Part shown: positions 3,064 to 62,458 of the stretch, in pieces
Layout: every line of letters begins with the position of its first letter
How positions within the stretch are numbered: position 1 is the stretch's first letter
Assembly: GCF_023276355.1 (NCBI RefSeq)
Contig: NZ_JALLPL010000001.1
Coordinates: 1,426,001-1,490,000, forward strand
Source: Haloplanus sp. XH21
Lineage (GTDB): Archaea > Halobacteriota > Halobacteria > Halobacteriales > Haloferacaceae
Direction of reading: 5' to 3'
DNA length: 64,000 nt
Position numbers and translations under genes: made by a program
The notes under the pieces: generated by a model
Seen by the model: only the letters and a program-made list of their open reading frames with translations
Database searches by the model: none
Told to the model about the DNA's origin: nothing

Positions 3064-6000
3064 ATGTCCGACCCTCTTCTGGAGGCCGACATGGGGGTTC
3101 TCTCCGAGTTTGCATCGTTGGTTCCAGGGGGCGTTCTCGTCGTCGACGACAGGGGTGGTTTAGTGTGGGCCGACGACGACGCCACGGAGCTGTTCGATCT
3201 CGACCGAGACGATCCCTCGATACCGGACGTATCCGGTCGCGGGGGGGAGCGACTGCCCCCTGCCGAGCGGCCGTACATGCAGGTGTTCGAGACGAGCGAG
3301 CCAGTCCGGGACGTGTCGTGCCAGGCTGCACTCGCCGACGGCCCCGGCGTGGTCACCGTCGACGCCGTCCTGCTCTCGGGTGACCGGGCCGCCCTCACCG
3401 TCGACACCGAGACGCCGACGCGGGACGGCGCCGACGTTCTCGAACGGGTCGACGACGGCTTCTTCGCGCTCGATCGCGACTGGCGATTCACGTACGTGAA
3501 CGGCCGTGCCGAGTCGCTCCTCGAACGGAGCGAGGCGGCTCTCCTCGGCGAAAACATCTGGGACGCGTTCCCCGCGGCGGTCGACTCGCGGTTTCCAGCG
3601 GAGTACGAACGCGCGATGGAGACCCAGGAGCCGGTCGCGTTCGACGCGTATTTCCCCCCGCTCGAGGAGTGGTTCGAGGTGCGCGCTTACCCCTCCGAGA
3701 CGGGGCTGTCGGTGTATTTCAAGGGCGTCACCGAGCGCAAGGAGCGCGAACGGGAACTGGAGCAGTACGAGACCATCCTCGAGACCATCGACGACGGCGT
3801 CTACATCGTCGACCAGGACGGGGAATTCAGACTCGTCAACGAGGCGTACGCCGAGATGGTCGGCCGCGAACCGGAAGACCTCGTCGGCACCGCGGCCAGC
3901 ACGCTGGTCAGCGACGAGACGGCCGAGCGCGCACAGGAGATCCACCGCGAATTGTGCGAAACTGACACCGAGCAGGCACGCCTCGAAACCGACTTGGAGA
4001 CGGTGGATGGCGATCCCCTCACCGCCGAGGCGACGTTCACGCTCATCGATCAGGGCGACGAGACGTGGCGCGTGGGCGTCGTCCGTGACATCACCGAGCG
4101 CAAGGAACGCGAACGGGAACTGGCCGCCCAGTCGCGCCAGCAACGGGCCGTCGCGGAGCTCGGCAAGCACGCGCTCGGCGACACTGACCTCGACGCGTTC
4201 CTCGACCGGGCCGCGAGCGTCGTCGCCGCTGTCCTCGACAACGACTACTGCAAGGTGCTGGACCTCGACGCCGACGCCGGCGAACTGACGCTCCGACAGG
4301 GCGTCGGCTGGGATCCAGGTATCGTCGGCGCGGCCACCGTCTCCGCCACCGGCGACGACTCCCAGGCGGCGTACACGCTCGGCCAACAGGAGCCAGTCGT
4401 CGTCGAGGATCTGGCCGAGGACGCGCGGTTCTCGGGACCGGACCTCCTGACGGATCACGACGTGACGAGCGGGATCAGCGTCATCATCGGCTCGCTGGAG
4501 GATCCGTGGGGGATCCTCGGCACCCACGACACGGACCGAAAGGCGTTCGACGAACACGACGTGGACTTCGTTCGGAGCGTCGCCACCCTCGTCGCCGCCA
4601 CCATCGACAACCACGACCGTCGGCGCTCGCTCGAAGACGCCACCGCGGCGTTCCGGAGCGCCAGCCAGATATCCGTCCGCGACGAACCCGTCGAGGAGCG
4701 GGCCCGGGATCTGCTCGCCCTCGGCAGCGACTTCCTCGGTCTCGACACCGGGTTCCTGACCCGTATCGACGCCGGGACGCAGACGATCGAACTCGTGGCC
4801 GGCGACACGGGAGTGATCGAGGAGGGCGTCGAATGCCCGATCGAACAGGCGTACTGCCGAACCGCGCTCGACGAACGGGGACTCGTCGCGACCCACGACG
4901 CCAGCGGATCGGAGTGGGTGAGTGACCTGGCGTACGGCACGTGGGACAGCGACGCCTACGTCGGCCACGTGATCTCCGTCGACGGCGAGCCGTACGGCAC
5001 AATCGGCTTCGCGGGCGACGAGACGTGCGACGCGTTCGACGACATCGAACTGGCCTTCGTCGAACAGATCGCGCAGTGGATGCGCTACGAACTCTCGCGG
5101 CGGGACCGCGAGCGGAAACTCACCGAGCGCCGCCGCCGCTACCGGACGCTCATCGACAACCTCCCCAACGGCGCGGTGGTGCTGTTCGATCACGACCTCC
5201 GCTACACCACCTTCGGTGGCTCGCTGCCCGGGAACCTCGACGGGGAGTCCGACGTGGAGACCGAACGCATCGACGAAACCTTGCCGGAGCCGCTGGCCGC
5301 GCAGGTGCTGCCCAACTACCGGGCCACGCTGAACGGCGAGGAGCGGCAGTTCGTGATGACCCACGACGACGAGCTGCGGACGGTTCACACGACGCCGATC
5401 ACGGCCGAAGACGGCACCGTCGTCGCCGGGATGGCCATCTCACAGGACATCACCGAACGGCGGGAGCGAGAGCGGAAACTCCGGCGCCAGCGCGAGCAGC
5501 TCTCCGTCCTCAACGACATCAACTCCCTCGTACAGGACATCTCCGAGACGGTGATCGAACAGTCCGACCCGGCGGCCGTCCAGTCGGCCATCCGCACGCA
5601 TCTCCAGGAGTCGGCGTTCTACCGGACGGCCTGGGTCGGCACCGTCGGCCCGCACCGCGAGACCATCATGCGGGCGACGGGCTCCGACGCCGAAGATCTC
5701 CCCGTCGACCCCCCGATCGATATCGAGGGCGACTCCGTGACCGCCGAGGCAGTTCGCACCGGCGACATGTGCGTCGAGCAGGCGGTCGCGGCCGACAGTG
5801 TCGAGGCGATGGCAGCGATCCCGCTCACGTTCGAGGGGGCGCTGTACGGCGTCCTGACCGTCTTCACGTCGCGGACGGACGCGTTCGGCGACGCCGAGCG
5901 GACCACGCTCGACCGCCTCGGAACGATCGTCGCCCACGCCATGCTGTCGATCGACCGCGAGGCCCGCCTCCACCGGAGCGAACGCCTCTATCGCCGCCTC

Positions 6001-7017
6001 GCGGAGAACATCCCCAACGGGTCGGTGACGATGGTCGACACCGACCTCCGGTATCAGGTCGCCGCGGGAGAACTCCTCGAGTGGGTCGACATCGACGGCC
6101 GGGATCTACACGGCAAGCGACCGACCGAGGCCGACGCCCTCCCGGAAGAGGGCGGGCGGAAGGTCGAACGGGCCTGCGGTGCCGCCCTCGAGGGCGAAAC
6201 CGTCTCCTACCGACTGGCGTACGGCGACCACGTCATCGACGCCCAGACGTTGCCGATCTGGGACGAGGCCGAAGAGTCGGTCGTCGGCGCGATGACGCTC
6301 GCCCGAGACATCACCGAACGCGTCGAGCAACAGCAGGAACTCGAACACGAACGCGAGCGTCTCGAACTCCTGATCCGACTGATCCGACACAACTTCCTCA
6401 ACAGCCTCAACGTCGTCGACGCGCGGCTGAATCTCATCGAGGGACGCGTCGATTACGAGGTGTCGGACCATCTCGATACGGCCCAGCGGCGAACGGGCGA
6501 GATGATCGATCTGGTCGAGACGATCCGAAACCTGACCGACGCCACCATCGACAGCGACCAGCACGAACTCGAACCCGTGCGAGTCGACCGCGTCCTCGTC
6601 GACGAAACGGAGTCGGTGGCCGCCACCTACCCCGGCGCGGCGTTCACCGTCGGCGACCTTCCGCCCGTCTCGGTGGCGGCCGACTCCCTGCTCGGCGAGG
6701 CGTTCGGAAACGTCCTCCACAACGCCGTCCAGCACAACGACAAGGAGACGCCGCAAGTCACCGTCGACGCGACGGCGACCGACGAGACGGTCACGGTGTC
6801 CGTCGCCGACAACGGCCCCGGGATCCCCGCGGATCTCAAAGAGAGCATCTTCGAGAAGGGCATCCAGGGCTTCCAGAACCCGGGCACCGGATTCGGTCTG
6901 CATATCGTCCGCGAGATCGTCGACACGTACGGCGGCGAGGTGGCTGCCCTCGACGACGACCCCGAGGGGACGATCTTCCGGATCACGCTGGATCGGGCCG
7001 ACATGGCGGAGACGTAG
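3064..7017 (+). CDS. Large multi-PAS/multi-GAF sensor histidine kinase
   Basis: A 1317-residue soluble sensor kinase. By eye the order is: divergent PAS-like N-terminus (about 1-115), PAS (120-225) and PAS (235-345), each ending in TERKERERE linkers, GAF (about 355-510), GAF (535-680), PAS (690-800), GAF (815-965), PAS (970-1085), an H-box with RHNFLNSLNVV near 1095, then an HATPase_c domain with NVLHNAVQHND, DNGPGIP and GTGFGLHI. No transmembrane segment is visible, so it probably senses internal signals such as redox, light or ligands. It starts about 27 nt after a TTTAA box (3035-3039), suggesting a leaderless mRNA. No response regulator adjoins it. The signal is unknown. Confidence 0.9.
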   Translation: MSDPLLEADMGVLSEFASLVPGGVLVVDDRGGLVWADDDATELFDLDRDDPSIPDVSGRGGERLPPAERPYMQVFETSEPVRDVSCQAALADGPGVVTVDAVLLSGDRAALTVDTETPTRDGADVLERVDDGFFALDRDWRFTYVNGRAESLLERSEAALLGENIWDAFPAAVDSRFPAEYERAMETQEPVAFDAYFPPLEEWFEVRAYPSETGLSVYFKGVTERKERERELEQYETILETIDDGVYIVDQDGEFRLVNEAYAEMVGREPEDLVGTAASTLVSDETAERAQEIHRELCETDTEQARLETDLETVDGDPLTAEATFTLIDQGDETWRVGVVRDITERKERERELAAQSRQQRAVAELGKHALGDTDLDAFLDRAASVVAAVLDNDYCKVLDLDADAGELTLRQGVGWDPGIVGAATVSATGDDSQAAYTLGQQEPVVVEDLAEDARFSGPDLLTDHDVTSGISVIIGSLEDPWGILGTHDTDRKAFDEHDVDFVRSVATLVAATIDNHDRRRSLEDATAAFRSASQISVRDEPVEERARDLLALGSDFLGLDTGFLTRIDAGTQTIELVAGDTGVIEEGVECPIEQAYCRTALDERGLVATHDASGSEWVSDLAYGTWDSDAYVGHVISVDGEPYGTIGFAGDETCDAFDDIELAFVEQIAQWMRYELSRRDRERKLTERRRRYRTLIDNLPNGAVVLFDHDLRYTTFGGSLPGNLDGESDVETERIDETLPEPLAAQVLPNYRATLNGEERQFVMTHDDELRTVHTTPITAEDGTVVAGMAISQDITERRERERKLRRQREQLSVLNDINSLVQDISETVIEQSDPAAVQSAIRTHLQESAFYRTAWVGTVGPHRETIMRATGSDAEDLPVDPPIDIEGDSVTAEAVRTGDMCVEQAVAADSVEAMAAIPLTFEGALYGVLTVFTSRTDAFGDAERTTLDRLGTIVAHAMLSIDREARLHRSERLYRRLAENIPNGSVTMVDTDLRYQVAAGELLEWVDIDGRDLHGKRPTEADALPEEGGRKVERACGAALEGETVSYRLAYGDHVIDAQTLPIWDEAEESVVGAMTLARDITERVEQQQELEHERERLELLIRLIRHNFLNSLNVVDARLNLIEGRVDYEVSDHLDTAQRRTGEMIDLVETIRNLTDATIDSDQHELEPVRVDRVLVDETESVAATYPGAAFTVGDLPPVSVAADSLLGEAFGNVLHNAVQHNDKETPQVTVDATATDETVTVSVADNGPGIPADLKESIFEKGIQGFQNPGTGFGLHIVREIVDTYGGEVAALDDDPEGTIFRITLDRADMAET

Positions 7018-7066
7018 CGGATTTGGCGGGCGATTTATGCCGGTGTCGCCGCGCTACGGAGACGAG

Positions 7067-7498
7067 ATGTACGACTCGATACTGGTGCCGATCGACGGAA
7101 GCGGTCCGAGCGACGCCGCCCTGGATCACGCTCGAGGGCTGGCGACACAGTGGAACGCGACGGTACACGTGATCCACGCCATCGCACTCCCCGAACCGTC
7201 GATGCCGGGGGGTGACGTCCCGCCGACGGTCATCGAGGATATCGAAGCGGAGAGCGAGCAGCTGGTCGAGGACGCAATCGACGACCTCGAAGCCGACGGG
7301 ATCGACGCCGAGGGGGGCGCCTTCGACGGCGTCGCCGAGGAGGTCATCCGCGACTACGTCGCAGACCACGACATCGACCTCGTCGTGATGGGGACCCACG
7401 GCCGAACGGGCGTCAAGCGACTGCTCCTCGGGAGCACGACCGAGCGAACTCTCCGGACGGTCGACGTGCCGATCCTCACGGTCGAGTCGCCGCCCTGA
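7067..7498 (+). CDS. Universal stress protein, single UspA domain
   Basis: UspA-fold nucleotide-binding protein. The N-terminal strand MYDSILVPIDGSGPSD and the C-terminal ATP-binding motif VVMGTHGRTGVKRLLLGST followed by TERTLRTVDVPILTV are both intact. I place the start at 7067 (143 residues) because MYDSILVP is the family N-terminus; an in-frame ATG at 7037 would add ten unrelated residues. The exact role of UspA proteins in haloarchaea is not settled; ATP binding is inferred from the motif. The stop codon TGA is the first part of a hairpin repeat. Three further UspA loci or remnants follow within 7 kb. Confidence 0.93.
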   Translation: MYDSILVPIDGSGPSDAALDHARGLATQWNATVHVIHAIALPEPSMPGGDVPPTVIEDIEAESEQLVEDAIDDLEADGIDAEGGAFDGVAEEVIRDYVADHDIDLVVMGTHGRTGVKRLLLGSTTERTLRTVDVPILTVESPP

Positions 7499-7579
7499 TA
7501 CGGATTATTGTAACTGTTTACCGGTGGGTCGCTGGGACGGTCAAGCGAACCACCGGTACTGACTTCTAATAAACCGTAT
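7498..7579 (+). repeat. Palindromic stop-codon-overlapping element, copy 1
   Basis: Imperfect hairpin with about 35-nt arms. The outer stem pairs ATACGGATTATT with AATAAACCGTAT (11 of 12), a bulged middle holds GTAACTGTT, and the inner stem pairs TACCGGTGG and TCGC with GCGA and CCACCGGTA. The loop is about a dozen bases. The first A is the last base of the preceding uspA stop codon (TGATACGG). Its right inner arm, 22 nt at 7545-7566, recurs exactly at 8577-8598. It may act as a 3'-end RNA hairpin or be a mobile palindrome. Confidence 0.75.
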
Positions 7580-7661
7580 GACCCCCGGCGATTGGCCCAC
7601 GAATTAACTCCGTCCGGGTGGACACTCGATCTACTGCGAGCGAGTGCGACTGACCCACACC

Positions 7662-8540
7662 ATGTACGACACGATCTATCTACCGAACGACGGGAGCGAT
7701 CCCGCCGAGGCGGCGACGACCTGTGGCATCGAGTTGGCGCGGCGTTTCGACGCCGCGGTATCGGTGGTACACGTCCTCGAGGCGGACGTGCCGCCGATGA
7801 TCGACGTCGAACCCCCCGAGGACCCGGGACGAGAGGCGCTCGACGAGGAGCCGCGTCAGGCGCTGGAGCGCGCCGAAACCCAGGCGGCGGACGCCGACGT
7901 GCCCTGCCGGACGGCCGTCGAACCGGGCCGCCCTCACGAACGGATCGTGGAGCGGGCCGCCGAGTCAGACGCGGACCTGATCGTGATGGGTACCCACGGC
8001 CGGACGGGACTGGAGCGGCTCCTGATCGGCAGCGTCACCGAACGTGTCCTCCGCACGAGCGACGTGCCGGTTCTGACCACCCGGGCGGACGGCACGAGCG
8101 CGTTCGACGCGGTGCTGGTCCCGACCGACGGGAGCGACTGCGCGGCGCGTGCCACCGACCACGCGCTCGCCATCGCGGATCGGTACGACGCGACGGTTCA
8201 CGCGCTGTCGGTCGTCGATGTCCAGTCCATCGCCGGCGCCTACCACGGCGGGACGGTCAGCGCCGAGTTCATCGACTCCCTCTCCCGCGAGCGCCAGGAG
8301 GCGGCCGACGCCGTCGCCGAGCAGGCGCGTGAGCGCGGTGTCGATGTCGAAACGACGGTCCTCGAAGGATCGCCGGGCCGGACCATCACCGACTACGCCG
8401 ACGAGCACGGAATCGACCTCGTCTCGATGGGGACTCACGGACGGAGCGGCGTCAGCCGTTATCTGCTCGGCAGCGTCACCGAGCGCGTTCTTCGGACGTT
8501 CCCGGGGCCGGTGCTGACGGCGCCCCCTGATACGGATTGA
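7662..8540 (+). CDS. Tandem-domain universal stress protein
   Basis: 292 residues made of two complete UspA domains. The first begins MYDTIYLPNDGSDPAE and ends VMGTHGRTGLERLLIGSV-TERVLRTSDVPVLT. The second begins FDAVLVPTDGSDCAAR and ends SMGTHGRSGVSRYLLGSV-TERVLRTF. Both keep the glycine-rich ATP-binding loop. I chose the ATG at 7662 over 7644 because it gives the family start. The last three residues (DTD) and the stop codon are encoded inside the adjoining hairpin element, so the element appears to have set the C-terminus. It may form an internal dimer. Confidence 0.92.
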   Translation: MYDTIYLPNDGSDPAEAATTCGIELARRFDAAVSVVHVLEADVPPMIDVEPPEDPGREALDEEPRQALERAETQAADADVPCRTAVEPGRPHERIVERAAESDADLIVMGTHGRTGLERLLIGSVTERVLRTSDVPVLTTRADGTSAFDAVLVPTDGSDCAARATDHALAIADRYDATVHALSVVDVQSIAGAYHGGTVSAEFIDSLSRERQEAADAVAEQARERGVDVETTVLEGSPGRTITDYADEHGIDLVSMGTHGRSGVSRYLLGSVTERVLRTFPGPVLTAPPDTD

Positions 8541-8607
8541 GGTAGCTGCTCACCGGCGGTTCGCGGTAACCGTTCGGCGAACCACCGGTACTGACTTCCA
8601 CCCGCCT
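8528..8607 (+). repeat. Palindromic stop-codon-overlapping element, copy 2 (partly decayed)
   Basis: Begins TGATACGGATTGA, where the final TGA is the stop of the tandem Usp gene. The inner stem ACCGGCGGTTCGC pairs with GCGAACCACCGGT (12 of 13), and the 22-nt right inner arm is identical to copy 1. The outer stem no longer pairs well, so this copy looks degraded. It lies just before the promoter region of the cation exchanger. Confidence 0.65.
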
Positions 8608-8660
8608 GAGTGAGGGGATTATTTATCTGCGCCGGCAAACCGGTAGCGCGTACGCGCTCC

Positions 8661-9572
8661 ATGTTCGTCGAGATACTGTTCTTGCTCGCCGGGCTCGCGG
8701 CGCTCGTCTACGGCGGCGAACTCGTGGTGGGCGGCGCGAGTGGTCTCGCCCACGGCTTCGGCCTCCCGAAACTGTTCGTCGGCGTCACCGTCGTCGCCAT
8801 CGGGAGTTCGGTCCCCGAAATCGCCACCTCGATCTACGCCGGCGCCTATCAGGCCCCGCAGTTCGCCGTCGGTCACATCGTCGGCTCCGCCACCGCACAG
8901 ATCACCGTGGGCGTCGGCGTCGTCGCGCTCCTCTCGCCGCTCACGCTCGACCGCTCGAAGGTCAGACTCTACGGCGGTGGGATGCTCGTTGCGATGGCGC
9001 TCATGCTCGCGACTGTCTGGTCGGGTGAGGCGACGCGCGTCGAAGGGGCCGCGCTGGCGACGATATACCTCCTCTTTCTCGCGCTCCGGTACGAGGACCT
9101 CGACTTTCACGACGCCGTCGACACCCGGGCGACGGAGTCGACGTGGCGGTCCGTCGCCAGCCTCGGCCTCGGCCTCGCGCTCGTGGTCATCGGCGGACAC
9201 TTCTTGGTCGTCAACAGCCGGAACGTCGCGCTCGCCGCCGGCGTTCCACACCTCGTCGTCGGGCTGTTGACCGGCCTCGGCACCACCCTCCCCGAGATCG
9301 CCATCGCCGCCATCGCCGTCTCGAAGGATCGGAGCGGTATCGCCATCGGCACGCTGCTGGGGAGCAACATCACCGATCCGCTGTTCTCGTTCGGCGTCGG
9401 CGCCGCCGTCGGCGGCTTCACGTTCGCGGACGTCGGCGCCGTCCTCGGCGCCGGCGGCTACATGCTGCTGGCCTCGACCGTCGTCGTCGCGGTGCTGTTC
9501 GTCCGCGGGCGGGTGAGCCGTCTCGGCGCCATCGGCTGTATCTCGCTCTACGCGCCCACCTTTCTGGTCTGA
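8661..9572 (+). CDS. Sodium/calcium exchanger family membrane protein (CaxA/YrbG type)
   Basis: 303-residue polytopic membrane protein of the Ca2+/cation antiporter superfamily. Two inverted halves each carry the alpha-repeat signature: VAIGSSVPEIATSI in the first and LGTTLPEIAIAAIA followed by GTLLGSNITDPLFSFG in the second. About ten hydrophobic segments are visible. The start at 8661 is preferred because a TATA-like TTATTTA lies around 8618-8625 and would fall inside the longer reading frame that begins at 8610. It probably exports Ca2+ in exchange for Na+ across the cytoplasmic membrane; ion specificity is inferred. Confidence 0.9.
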   Translation: MFVEILFLLAGLAALVYGGELVVGGASGLAHGFGLPKLFVGVTVVAIGSSVPEIATSIYAGAYQAPQFAVGHIVGSATAQITVGVGVVALLSPLTLDRSKVRLYGGGMLVAMALMLATVWSGEATRVEGAALATIYLLFLALRYEDLDFHDAVDTRATESTWRSVASLGLGLALVVIGGHFLVVNSRNVALAAGVPHLVVGLLTGLGTTLPEIAIAAIAVSKDRSGIAIGTLLGSNITDPLFSFGVGAAVGGFTFADVGAVLGAGGYMLLASTVVVAVLFVRGRVSRLGAIGCISLYAPTFLV

Positions 9573-20326: not shown

Positions 20327-20404
20327 TAGGGATCATCGAACGTCACGATAGATTCGCACCGGGACGATCCGGCGCGAATCTATCAACAGTTACGGTACTC
20401 CCTA
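20327..20404 (-). repeat. Palindromic stop-codon-overlapping element, inverted copy
   Basis: Read on the minus strand it begins TAGGGAGTACCGTAACTGTT, has an inner stem GATAGATTCGC pairing with GCGAATCTATC (11 of 11) plus CCGG/CCGG, and closes with an outer TAGGGA/TCCCTA stem. Its 36-nt arms, bulged GTAACTGTT segment and short loop match the layout of copies 1 and 3, with a wholly different stem sequence. The TAG stop of the minus-strand cyclic-DPG-synthetase-like gene overlaps its first bases. It fills the gap between two convergent genes. Confidence 0.7.
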
Positions 20405-60815: not shown

Positions 60816-62294
60816 ATGGCACACGGGCGGGACAACCCTTCCCCGGACGGGATGACCGAGAAGTGTGGCGTCGTGGGCGTTTCCCTCACGGAGCGCGACG
60901 CCGCGCGTCCCCTCTATTACTCGCTGTATGCGTTACAGCATCGGGGACAGGAGTCGGCCGGCATCGTGACACACGACGGCTTCCAACAGCACAGTCGCGT
61001 CGAGATGGGCCTCGTCGGCGACGTGTTCGACGCCGACGACCTCTCACAGTTGAACGGGCCGACGGGCATCGGGCACGTCCGCTACCCCACCTCGGGAGGC
61101 GTCAACGCGTGTTGCGCCCAGCCCTTTTCCGTCTCCTTCAAGTCGGGGTCGCTCGGCCTGGCGCACAACGGCAATCTCGTCAACGCCGGAGAGATCCGGT
61201 CCGAACTCGAGGGGCTCGGTCACGCCTTCACCTCCAACGGCGACACCGAGGTCATCGCCCACGACCTCGCGCGCAACCTGCTGGAGGAGGATCTGGTCCG
61301 GGCGGTCAAGCGGACGATGGGACGCATCCACGGGTCGTACGCGCTGACCATCATGCACGACGAAACCGTCCTCGGCGTTCGGGATCCGGAGGGCAACCGC
61401 CCGCTCTGTATCGGGGAACTCGACGACGGCTACGTCATCGCCTCGGAGTCGGCGGCAATCGACGTCCTCGACGGCGAACTGGTTCGCGACGTGCGGCCGG
61501 GCGAACTCGTCGTCCTCGAAGACGACGGCAGCGGCTTCGAATCCTATCAACTGGTCGAACGCGACGACACCGCCCACTGCTTTTTCGAACACGTCTACTT
61601 CGCGCGCCCCGACTCCGTCATCGACGACGGCCTCGTCTACGAGGTGCGCCGAAACCTCGGGCGCGAACTCTGGGCGGAGAGCGGCATCGAGACGGACGTG
61701 GTAATGCCCGTCCCAGACTCCGGCCGCTCCTTCGCCTCGGGCTACGCCGAGGCCGCGAACGACGACGGCGCCGACGTGGAGTTCGCGGAGGGCCTGATGA
61801 AAAACCGGTACGTCGGCCGGACGTTCATCATGCCGACGCAGGACGAACGCGAACGCGCAGTGCGACTCAAACTCAACCCGATCCGGAGCACCGTCGAGGG
61901 CAAGACGGTCACTATCATCGACGACAGCATCGTGCGTGGGACGACATCGACGCAGTTGGTCGACCTCATCCGCGAGGCGGGCGCCGAGGAGGTCCACGTC
62001 CGCATCGGCGCGCCGCCCATCGTCGCGCCCTGTTACATGGGTATCGACATGGCGAGCCGTGACGAACTCATCGCCGCCGATCAGAGCGTCGACGACATCC
62101 GCGAGCACATCGGTGCCGACAGCCTCTCCTATCTCTCCATCGACGCCATCGCCGCCACCCTCGACCGCTCGCGCGGTGATCTCTGTCTCGGCTGTGTGAC
62201 CGGCGAATACCCCTACGATATCGAGGGCGAACAGACCGATCGCGACGTGACCCGCCCTGCTGTCGGCGGCGAGTCCGCGCCCGCGGACGACTGA
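60816..62294 (+). CDS. purF: Amidophosphoribosyltransferase
   Basis: 492 residues. First committed step of purine synthesis: PRPP plus glutamine to phosphoribosylamine. The N-terminal Ntn glutaminase has the nucleophile Cys in MTEKCGVVGVSL, so a short leader of 4 (ATG 60852) or 16 residues (ATG 60816) must be removed. The PRTase domain has VTIIDDSIVRGTTSTQLVDL. The C-terminal cysteines in DLCLGCVTGEYP may bind an Fe-S cluster as in bacterial PurF. Its TGA stop overlaps a palindromic element. Confidence 0.95.
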   Translation: MAHGRDNPSPDGMTEKCGVVGVSLTERDAARPLYYSLYALQHRGQESAGIVTHDGFQQHSRVEMGLVGDVFDADDLSQLNGPTGIGHVRYPTSGGVNACCAQPFSVSFKSGSLGLAHNGNLVNAGEIRSELEGLGHAFTSNGDTEVIAHDLARNLLEEDLVRAVKRTMGRIHGSYALTIMHDETVLGVRDPEGNRPLCIGELDDGYVIASESAAIDVLDGELVRDVRPGELVVLEDDGSGFESYQLVERDDTAHCFFEHVYFARPDSVIDDGLVYEVRRNLGRELWAESGIETDVVMPVPDSGRSFASGYAEAANDDGADVEFAEGLMKNRYVGRTFIMPTQDERERAVRLKLNPIRSTVEGKTVTIIDDSIVRGTTSTQLVDLIREAGAEEVHVRIGAPPIVAPCYMGIDMASRDELIAADQSVDDIREHIGADSLSYLSIDAIAATLDRSRGDLCLGCVTGEYPYDIEGEQTDRDVTRPAVGGESAPADD

Positions 62295-62375
62295 TACGGA
62301 TTGCTGTCACTGTTTACCACACCGACTGCCAGACTGCGGGCGATCGGTGTGGAAATGACTCGTAGTAATCCACAT
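62292..62375 (+). repeat. Palindromic stop-codon-overlapping element, copy 3
   Basis: Begins with the purF stop (TGATACGGATT). Left arm ATACGGATTGCTGTCACTG then TTTACCACACCGA; the right arm ends in TCGGTGTGGAAATGACT then CGTAGTAATCCACAT. The inner stem CCACACCGA pairs with TCGGTGTGG, whereas copies 1 and 2 use CCGGTGG at the same place, and the outer GGATT pairs with AATCC. Same layout as copy 1, with compensating stem differences. Confidence 0.75.
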
Positions 62376-62458
62376 GACGGATTCTCACGGGCAGAGAACG
62401 GTTCTCAACTCCCGAGAATAGCCCGCGATTTTATTGAATCTGATAGTGTTGGTCGAGT

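Follow-up and report, generated by a model that had tools for sequence, protein, structure and literature searches.

A repeated 80-bp palindrome of haloarchaea with TNA target duplications, found mostly at stop codons

IS5 elements of the IS1031 group duplicate a TNA triplet, and PIF has a palindromic target, CWCTTAGWG. A 3-bp duplication, TAA or TTA, is also made by mPing, a Tourist MITE of the PIF-Harbinger type (PMC2836001). Closer to the present case, three classes of transposase-free repeats were described in Haloquadratum: MITEs, PATEs, and SMRs (PMC3119063). The SMRs, one family of which is 80 bp long, have inverted ends and no known transposase, and were reported to insert into other mobile elements without target duplication (PMC3119063). 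The pneumococcal RUP, BOX, and SPRITE are MITE-like repeats over-represented between convergent genes (PMC3049150).

The element studied here resembles MITEs in being short and non-coding, with terminal inverted repeats, a target duplication, empty sites, many intergenic copies, and bursts of near-identical copies. Unlike MITEs, it is palindromic almost to its centre, its inner stem varies between lineages with the pairing kept, three quarters of its copies lie exactly at stop codons, and no partner transposon was found in the genomes searched. With SMRs it shares the very small size, a haloarchaeal host, inverted ends, and orphan status; going by the description of SMRs only, it differs in duplicating TNA and in lying mainly at host gene ends. 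Since SMRs make no duplication and PATEs have no inverted ends, it fits neither class, and it shares its ends and duplication with MITEs and its size and orphan status with SMRs. Enterobacterial REPs and PATE/IS605 palindromes are likewise repeated extragenic palindromes near gene ends, but they make no target duplication, whereas this element is longer, duplicates TNA, and shows no linkage to a Y1 transposase. The 3-bp TNA duplication recalls Tourist/PIF-Harbinger and IS1031-like elements, and the palindromic target recalls PIF, although the ends differ and no homologous transposase was found. For RUP, BOX, and SPRITE, in turn, duplication of the stop codon itself as the target was not reported (PMC3049150). 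In the freely accessible literature, we found no description of this family or of a stop-codon habit of this kind.

The window, that is, the whole stretch of 64,000 nucleotides analysed (G000:C1:1426001-1490000), belongs to a source genome, G000, of 2.94 Mb in 3 contigs. A sequence-only reading had placed two hairpins at the 3' ends of two neighbouring usp genes, and both sequence and coordinates agree with it. The features are as follows:

7496..7498, + strand: left target duplication of copy 1; TGA, the stop codon of usp gene 1 (sequence, ORF, TNA statistics)
7499..7578, + strand: copy 1, the 80-bp palindrome (cmsearch 101.1 bits; 80-nt alignments A1 and A2; folding)
7579..7581, + strand: right target duplication of copy 1; TGA, non-coding here (sequence)
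8528..8530, + strand: left target duplication of copy 2; TGA, not in the reading frame of usp gene 2 (sequence, ORF frame)
8531..8606, + strand: copy 2, right end decayed (cmsearch 47.7 bits; sequence)
8607..8609, + strand: right target duplication of copy 2; TGA (sequence)
20327..20404, - strand: diverged member of a TAGGGA...TCCCTA subtype (cmsearch 44.6 bits; context; gene end)
62292..62377, + strand: diverged member with another inner stem, element at 62295-62374 (cmsearch 28.4 bits, E=0.0005; sequence; context)

Usp gene 1 (ORF 7037-7498; Pfam Usp, E=2.9e-31) ends, as had been proposed, on the TGA before copy 1. Judging from the sequence, copy 1 entered this TGA, and the duplicated TGA still terminates the protein. 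Usp gene 2 (ORF 7644-8540, a two-domain Usp) does take its last codons and stop from copy 2, which gives GAT ACG GAT (with the duplicated GA) and the TGA at 8538-8540. Joining the flanks of copy 2 yields ...GCG CCC CCT GAG TGA (APPE*), probably the end of the gene before insertion, in place of the present ...CCT GAT ACG GAT TGA (APPDTD*). Copy 2 thus appears to be an off-target near miss that replaced the last residues of a gene that survived, not a second case of the stop rule. The two copies are 80% identical across 74 nt and have in common the 22-nt inner arm noticed earlier (7545-7566 and 8577-8598, identical); their folding energies are -35.5 kcal/mol for copy 1 (z -5.1) and -30.3 for copy 2 (z -2.45). 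With up to 3 mismatches allowed, the window has 5 occurrences of the motif where 0.1 would be expected, a recurrence that is not due to chance. The element at 62295-62374 has TGA on both flanks, the left one being the stop of the upstream gene; the target duplication of the member at 20327-20404 is not clear. Just upstream of the usp pair lies a gene for a 1317-aa PAS/GAF sensor histidine kinase (window 3064-7017), and just downstream a Na/Ca exchanger gene (8661-9572).

The repeat unit proposed from the letters alone is real, but its extent had to be revised: it is an imperfect palindrome of 80 bp with the ends TACGG...CCGTA and a 3-bp TNA duplicated on each side, and its length was exactly 80 nt in 27 of the 31 first-extracted copies. 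A single strand folds into one long hairpin with an outer stem (1-15/66-80), an inner stem (21-34/47-60), and a variable loop. The bulged GTAACTGTT seen earlier is present; it is really one side of a conserved 5x5 internal loop between the stems, CTGTT opposite CTGAC. In the outer arms 96% of cells are paired, around a fixed A·A mismatch at 6/75. Of 120 genus copies, 97-98% retain the mismatches C16·C65 and G18·G63, as do most of those from Natrialbaceae. The inner stem has hardly any sequence in common between the genus and the Natrialbaceae, yet 95% of its cells pair. In a 20-sequence alignment, covariation was 0.313, against 0.102 (sd 0.013) when shuffled and at most 0.088 with the partners slid, and 12 pairs had been altered on both sides, counts that relatedness and the biology of the element can inflate. 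A stem swapped while two mismatches stay fixed suggests that a protein reads the fold, or its inverted symmetry, together with the asymmetric core, and this combination offers a handle for finding the mobilising enzyme.

Further copies in the genome and its relatives turned out to be neither few nor placed at random with respect to stops. With a covariance model built from 26 copies, we found at least ~95 distinct copies in G000, all on the main contig, among up to 150 scored candidates, many palindromes being listed on both strands; the window together with 486 kb of stretches taken from around copies gave 109 distinct matches at E<0.01, and all copy numbers are lower bounds. The other two contigs (C2 and C3, 0.41 Mb) had no scored copy despite many transposases; in G003 and G006, copies do occur on smaller contigs. 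All 11 other genus members sampled carry the element, with 2 to >100 candidate matches each. The same covariance-model search gave none at E<=0.01 in 12 other genera of the host's family, and 3 of 16 genomes from other families carry copies. An exact 24-base pattern also matched Natrarchaeobius, Halobiforma, and Natrialba (so that Natrialbaceae are among the carriers) and two MAGs, and relatives of the element lie on plasmids of Natronomonas, Halomicrobium, and Haloplanus. Phage records and viral contigs searched for the element gave no match. The intergenic repeats of Halovirus HF1 were set aside as a counterpart; they are AT-rich viral promoter repeats (PMC7230728), and the element is unmatched in phage and viral sequence.

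Several lines of evidence point to mobility. The 3-nt flanks were identical in 62 of 81 good copies (shuffled right flanks: mean 27, max 40), and the duplicated triplet is nearly always TNA (TGA, TCA, or TAA). The reconstructed target before insertion is a palindrome, GNC-TNA-GNC, also for insertions away from stops. Empty orthologous sites were found in three species pairs, with the gene end intact each time: G000 is without elements present in G001 and G011, and G009 without one present in G000. Recent activity is indicated by eight copies in G007 that are identical to one another and by identical pairs in G003, every one of these copies lying in a TNA duplication of its own. We conclude from the TNA duplications and from the empty sites in relatives that the element is mobile and duplicates 3 bp of its target. 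In genomes of family f7 (L298, L301, L296), other palindromic subtypes, such as TAGGGAT...ATCCCTA, are nested in TACGG elements; they sit at internal TNA triplets of these, and therefore several TNA-duplicating subtypes exist.

Placement on stop codons was counted on the stretches read around copies, with genes called by a codon-usage model trained on the fetched stretches (559 genes, 87% coding). The calls are sound, since 10 of 10 sampled genes abutting an element match Pfam domains; the last 15 codons of abutting genes also score like those of other genes. In G000, 65 of 81 copies stand directly against a stop codon; depending on the orientation of the element, either the TGA or TAA of the gene is the left flank or the reverse complement of this triplet is the right flank. 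Among the relatives, represented by their best-scoring copies, 15/20 were at stops in G003, 14/20 in G009/G002, and 22/36 in G007. Over the four species samples, 116 of 157 copies (74%) lie exactly at the stop of a neighbouring gene. The earlier wording of a repeat fixed at stop codons was therefore too strong, with 26% of copies elsewhere, while the bias itself is strong. Scattered copies taken from additional genomes are mostly at stops as well, and so are about half of the Natrialbaceae copies. At one such stop, the gene is that of the archaeal transcription termination factor FttA/aCPSF1 (L168:2683-4551, - strand).

The target motif alone was rejected as the cause of this bias. Stops account for 15% of TNA sites between genes and for 28% of CTNAG sites, and when sites were weighted by a target profile learnt only from non-stop insertions (32 sites), the predicted stop share was 27% (all intergenic sites) to 37% (divergent regions left out) vs the 74% seen (p ~1e-20). 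The excess held in convergent regions (46/56 vs 43% predicted, p 2e-9) and in tandem regions (70/93 vs 33%, p 7e-17). Copies are depleted between divergent genes, with 8 of 157 although these regions hold 22% of the weighted target, and inside called genes, which hold 64% of it and yet have 1 of 157. An early impression that element and gene always point in the same direction was dropped after the full count: orientation is random (62 same, 53 opposite, p 0.46).

Our preferred explanation, to which we give a probability of roughly 0.78, is a selfish, non-autonomous, MITE-like palindrome of 80 bp that duplicates TNA at GNC-TNA-GNC and finds safe sites in stop codons. The target would presumably be cut in trans by a DDE transposase. 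This target resembles haloarchaeal gene ends, where a GNC codon is followed by TGA, and so a good share of the non-coding targets would be stop codons. Insertion exactly at the stop would do the gene no damage, since duplication of the TGA or TAA restores the stop codon, while copies landing within genes or promoters would be purged; copies at stops would therefore accumulate and persist. We infer what type of transposase is involved and that selective retention causes the stop excess. One point against retention is that the convergent-region excess is larger than simple tolerance predicts, most positions past the stop being expected to be equally harmless there. The element illustrates a selfish way of life in a gene-dense genome: the stop triplet that it duplicates is the only site of a gene at which an insertion does not alter the protein.

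The age of the copies, judged crudely by their identity, bears on retention. In G007, young copies were at stops in 10 of 20 cases and older ones in 12 of 16 (p 0.18), and the stop share of young G007 copies differed from that of all G000 copies (p 0.0095); in G003, 8 of 9 young copies were at stops. A model in which young copies are random and old ones at stops is thus only partly supported, by G007 and not by G003.

It is improbable, although still to be taken seriously, that insertion is actively steered to stops by a sensing of gene ends or that the palindrome came to serve the host across the genome as a portable hairpin for 3' ends. In either case, a selfish palindrome would supply gene-end architecture in haloarchaea.

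The better of these two alternatives, though unlikely, is a domesticated 3'-end element, an mRNA hairpin beside the stop kept because it helps the host through transcription termination or a roadblock, exonuclease protection, or ribosome stalling. The hairpins are strong and stable on both strands, they stand at zero distance from the stop, and the replaced stem with its covariation and two-sided pair changes would fit selection on pairing, although transposition or arm-to-arm repair can also maintain it. Remnants or copies at one stop codon in different species (L244/L202, L086/L187, L094/L212) argue in the same direction. There is also precedent: in Haloferax, a hairpin gave 59% termination in vivo (PMC7237163), and in E. 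coli, REPs within 15 nt of the stop stall ribosomes (PMC12306157). Against this, the element shows no preferred orientation although its loop is asymmetric, and this lack of a fixed orientation would make it more likely that the core asymmetry serves mobility than that it acts in an mRNA signal. Nor is it required, being absent from the other sampled genera of the host's family. An intrinsic terminator pattern (GC stem, then T tract) had no match around the two window copies, and an Rfam search of the element none up to E=1. Between the two readings first offered for the hairpins, the mobile palindrome is accordingly the one that gains support, from TNA duplications above chance, empty orthologous sites, near-identical young copies, and enrichment at stops; the 3'-end RNA element has no direct support, given its random orientation and the missing Rfam and T-tract matches. 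A 3'-end role of the hairpin for the host, perhaps a secondary one in termination or mRNA stability, is possible. Many genes occur naturally both with such a hairpin immediately behind the stop codon and without one, which makes the role of archaeal 3' hairpins testable.

In two of the same-stop cases (L086/L187 and L244/L202), the elements in the two species have opposite orientations; either each was inserted independently at the same stop, or the palindrome was inverted.

Gene-end-directed transposition, in which the machinery senses gene ends as well as TNA, for example through a link to the termination of transcription or translation, seems more doubtful. The stop share is 2-2.7x the prediction from local sequence and gene avoidance, the excess extends to convergent regions, where selection should be weak, and the young G003 copies are nearly all at stops. 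However, half of the youngest G007 copies are off stops, some of them between divergent genes, and their stop share is near the 41% of stops among strict CTSAG intergenic sites there. The prediction itself comes from a profile of only 32 sites, and no mechanism is known.

Very unlikely is mobility as a single-strand hairpin, of the IS200/IS605-type REP/PATE or the integron attC kind, with strand polarity set by the fixed C·C and G·G mismatches. The imperfect palindrome, the retention of these mismatches, and the Y1 transposases present in the genomes would suit it, but the element has clear 3-bp duplications, which such systems do not make. IS605/PATE/REP was rejected on the TNA duplications and on the eight Y1 loci tested, which had no element within ~1.5 kb; integron attC was rejected because the copies are single and dispersed, with TNA duplications and no cassette arrays. 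That both hairpins are a by-product of usp genes duplicated with their 3' ends can be dismissed despite their shared usp neighbours, as ~100 other copies adjoin unrelated genes and the frame in which element and gene are joined differs between the two copies.

To return to the preferred reading of a MITE-like element, a parent was sought by end sequence with the MITE core excluded, a search that would miss a partner sharing few end bases. Neither the 12 genus genomes nor the 392 genomes sampled across the order yielded an autonomous element with the ends of the palindrome, and because of this we call the element MITE-like rather than a MITE of a named IS. Candidates for a parent transposon proved to be decayed copies, nested MITEs, or copies interrupted by an unrelated IS. 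PF13586 was absent in four genomes; DDE_Tnp_1 genes were present in 5 of 5 genomes searched, and no PF01609 locus carries the ends of the element.

Finally, the palindrome looks like a hot spot for an IS with the ends GGCYYTGTTGAAA. The same IS lies at one internal position of the 80-bp element in four independent cases (L370/L372, G000:C1:1712000; L362/L373, G007:C1:2938523; L361/L374 and L369/L375, G002:C2:969053, 2177036). It enters after TACGGATTATT or close variants, and in the G007 case the 9-bp duplication of the inserted IS, CGGATTATT, is visible.
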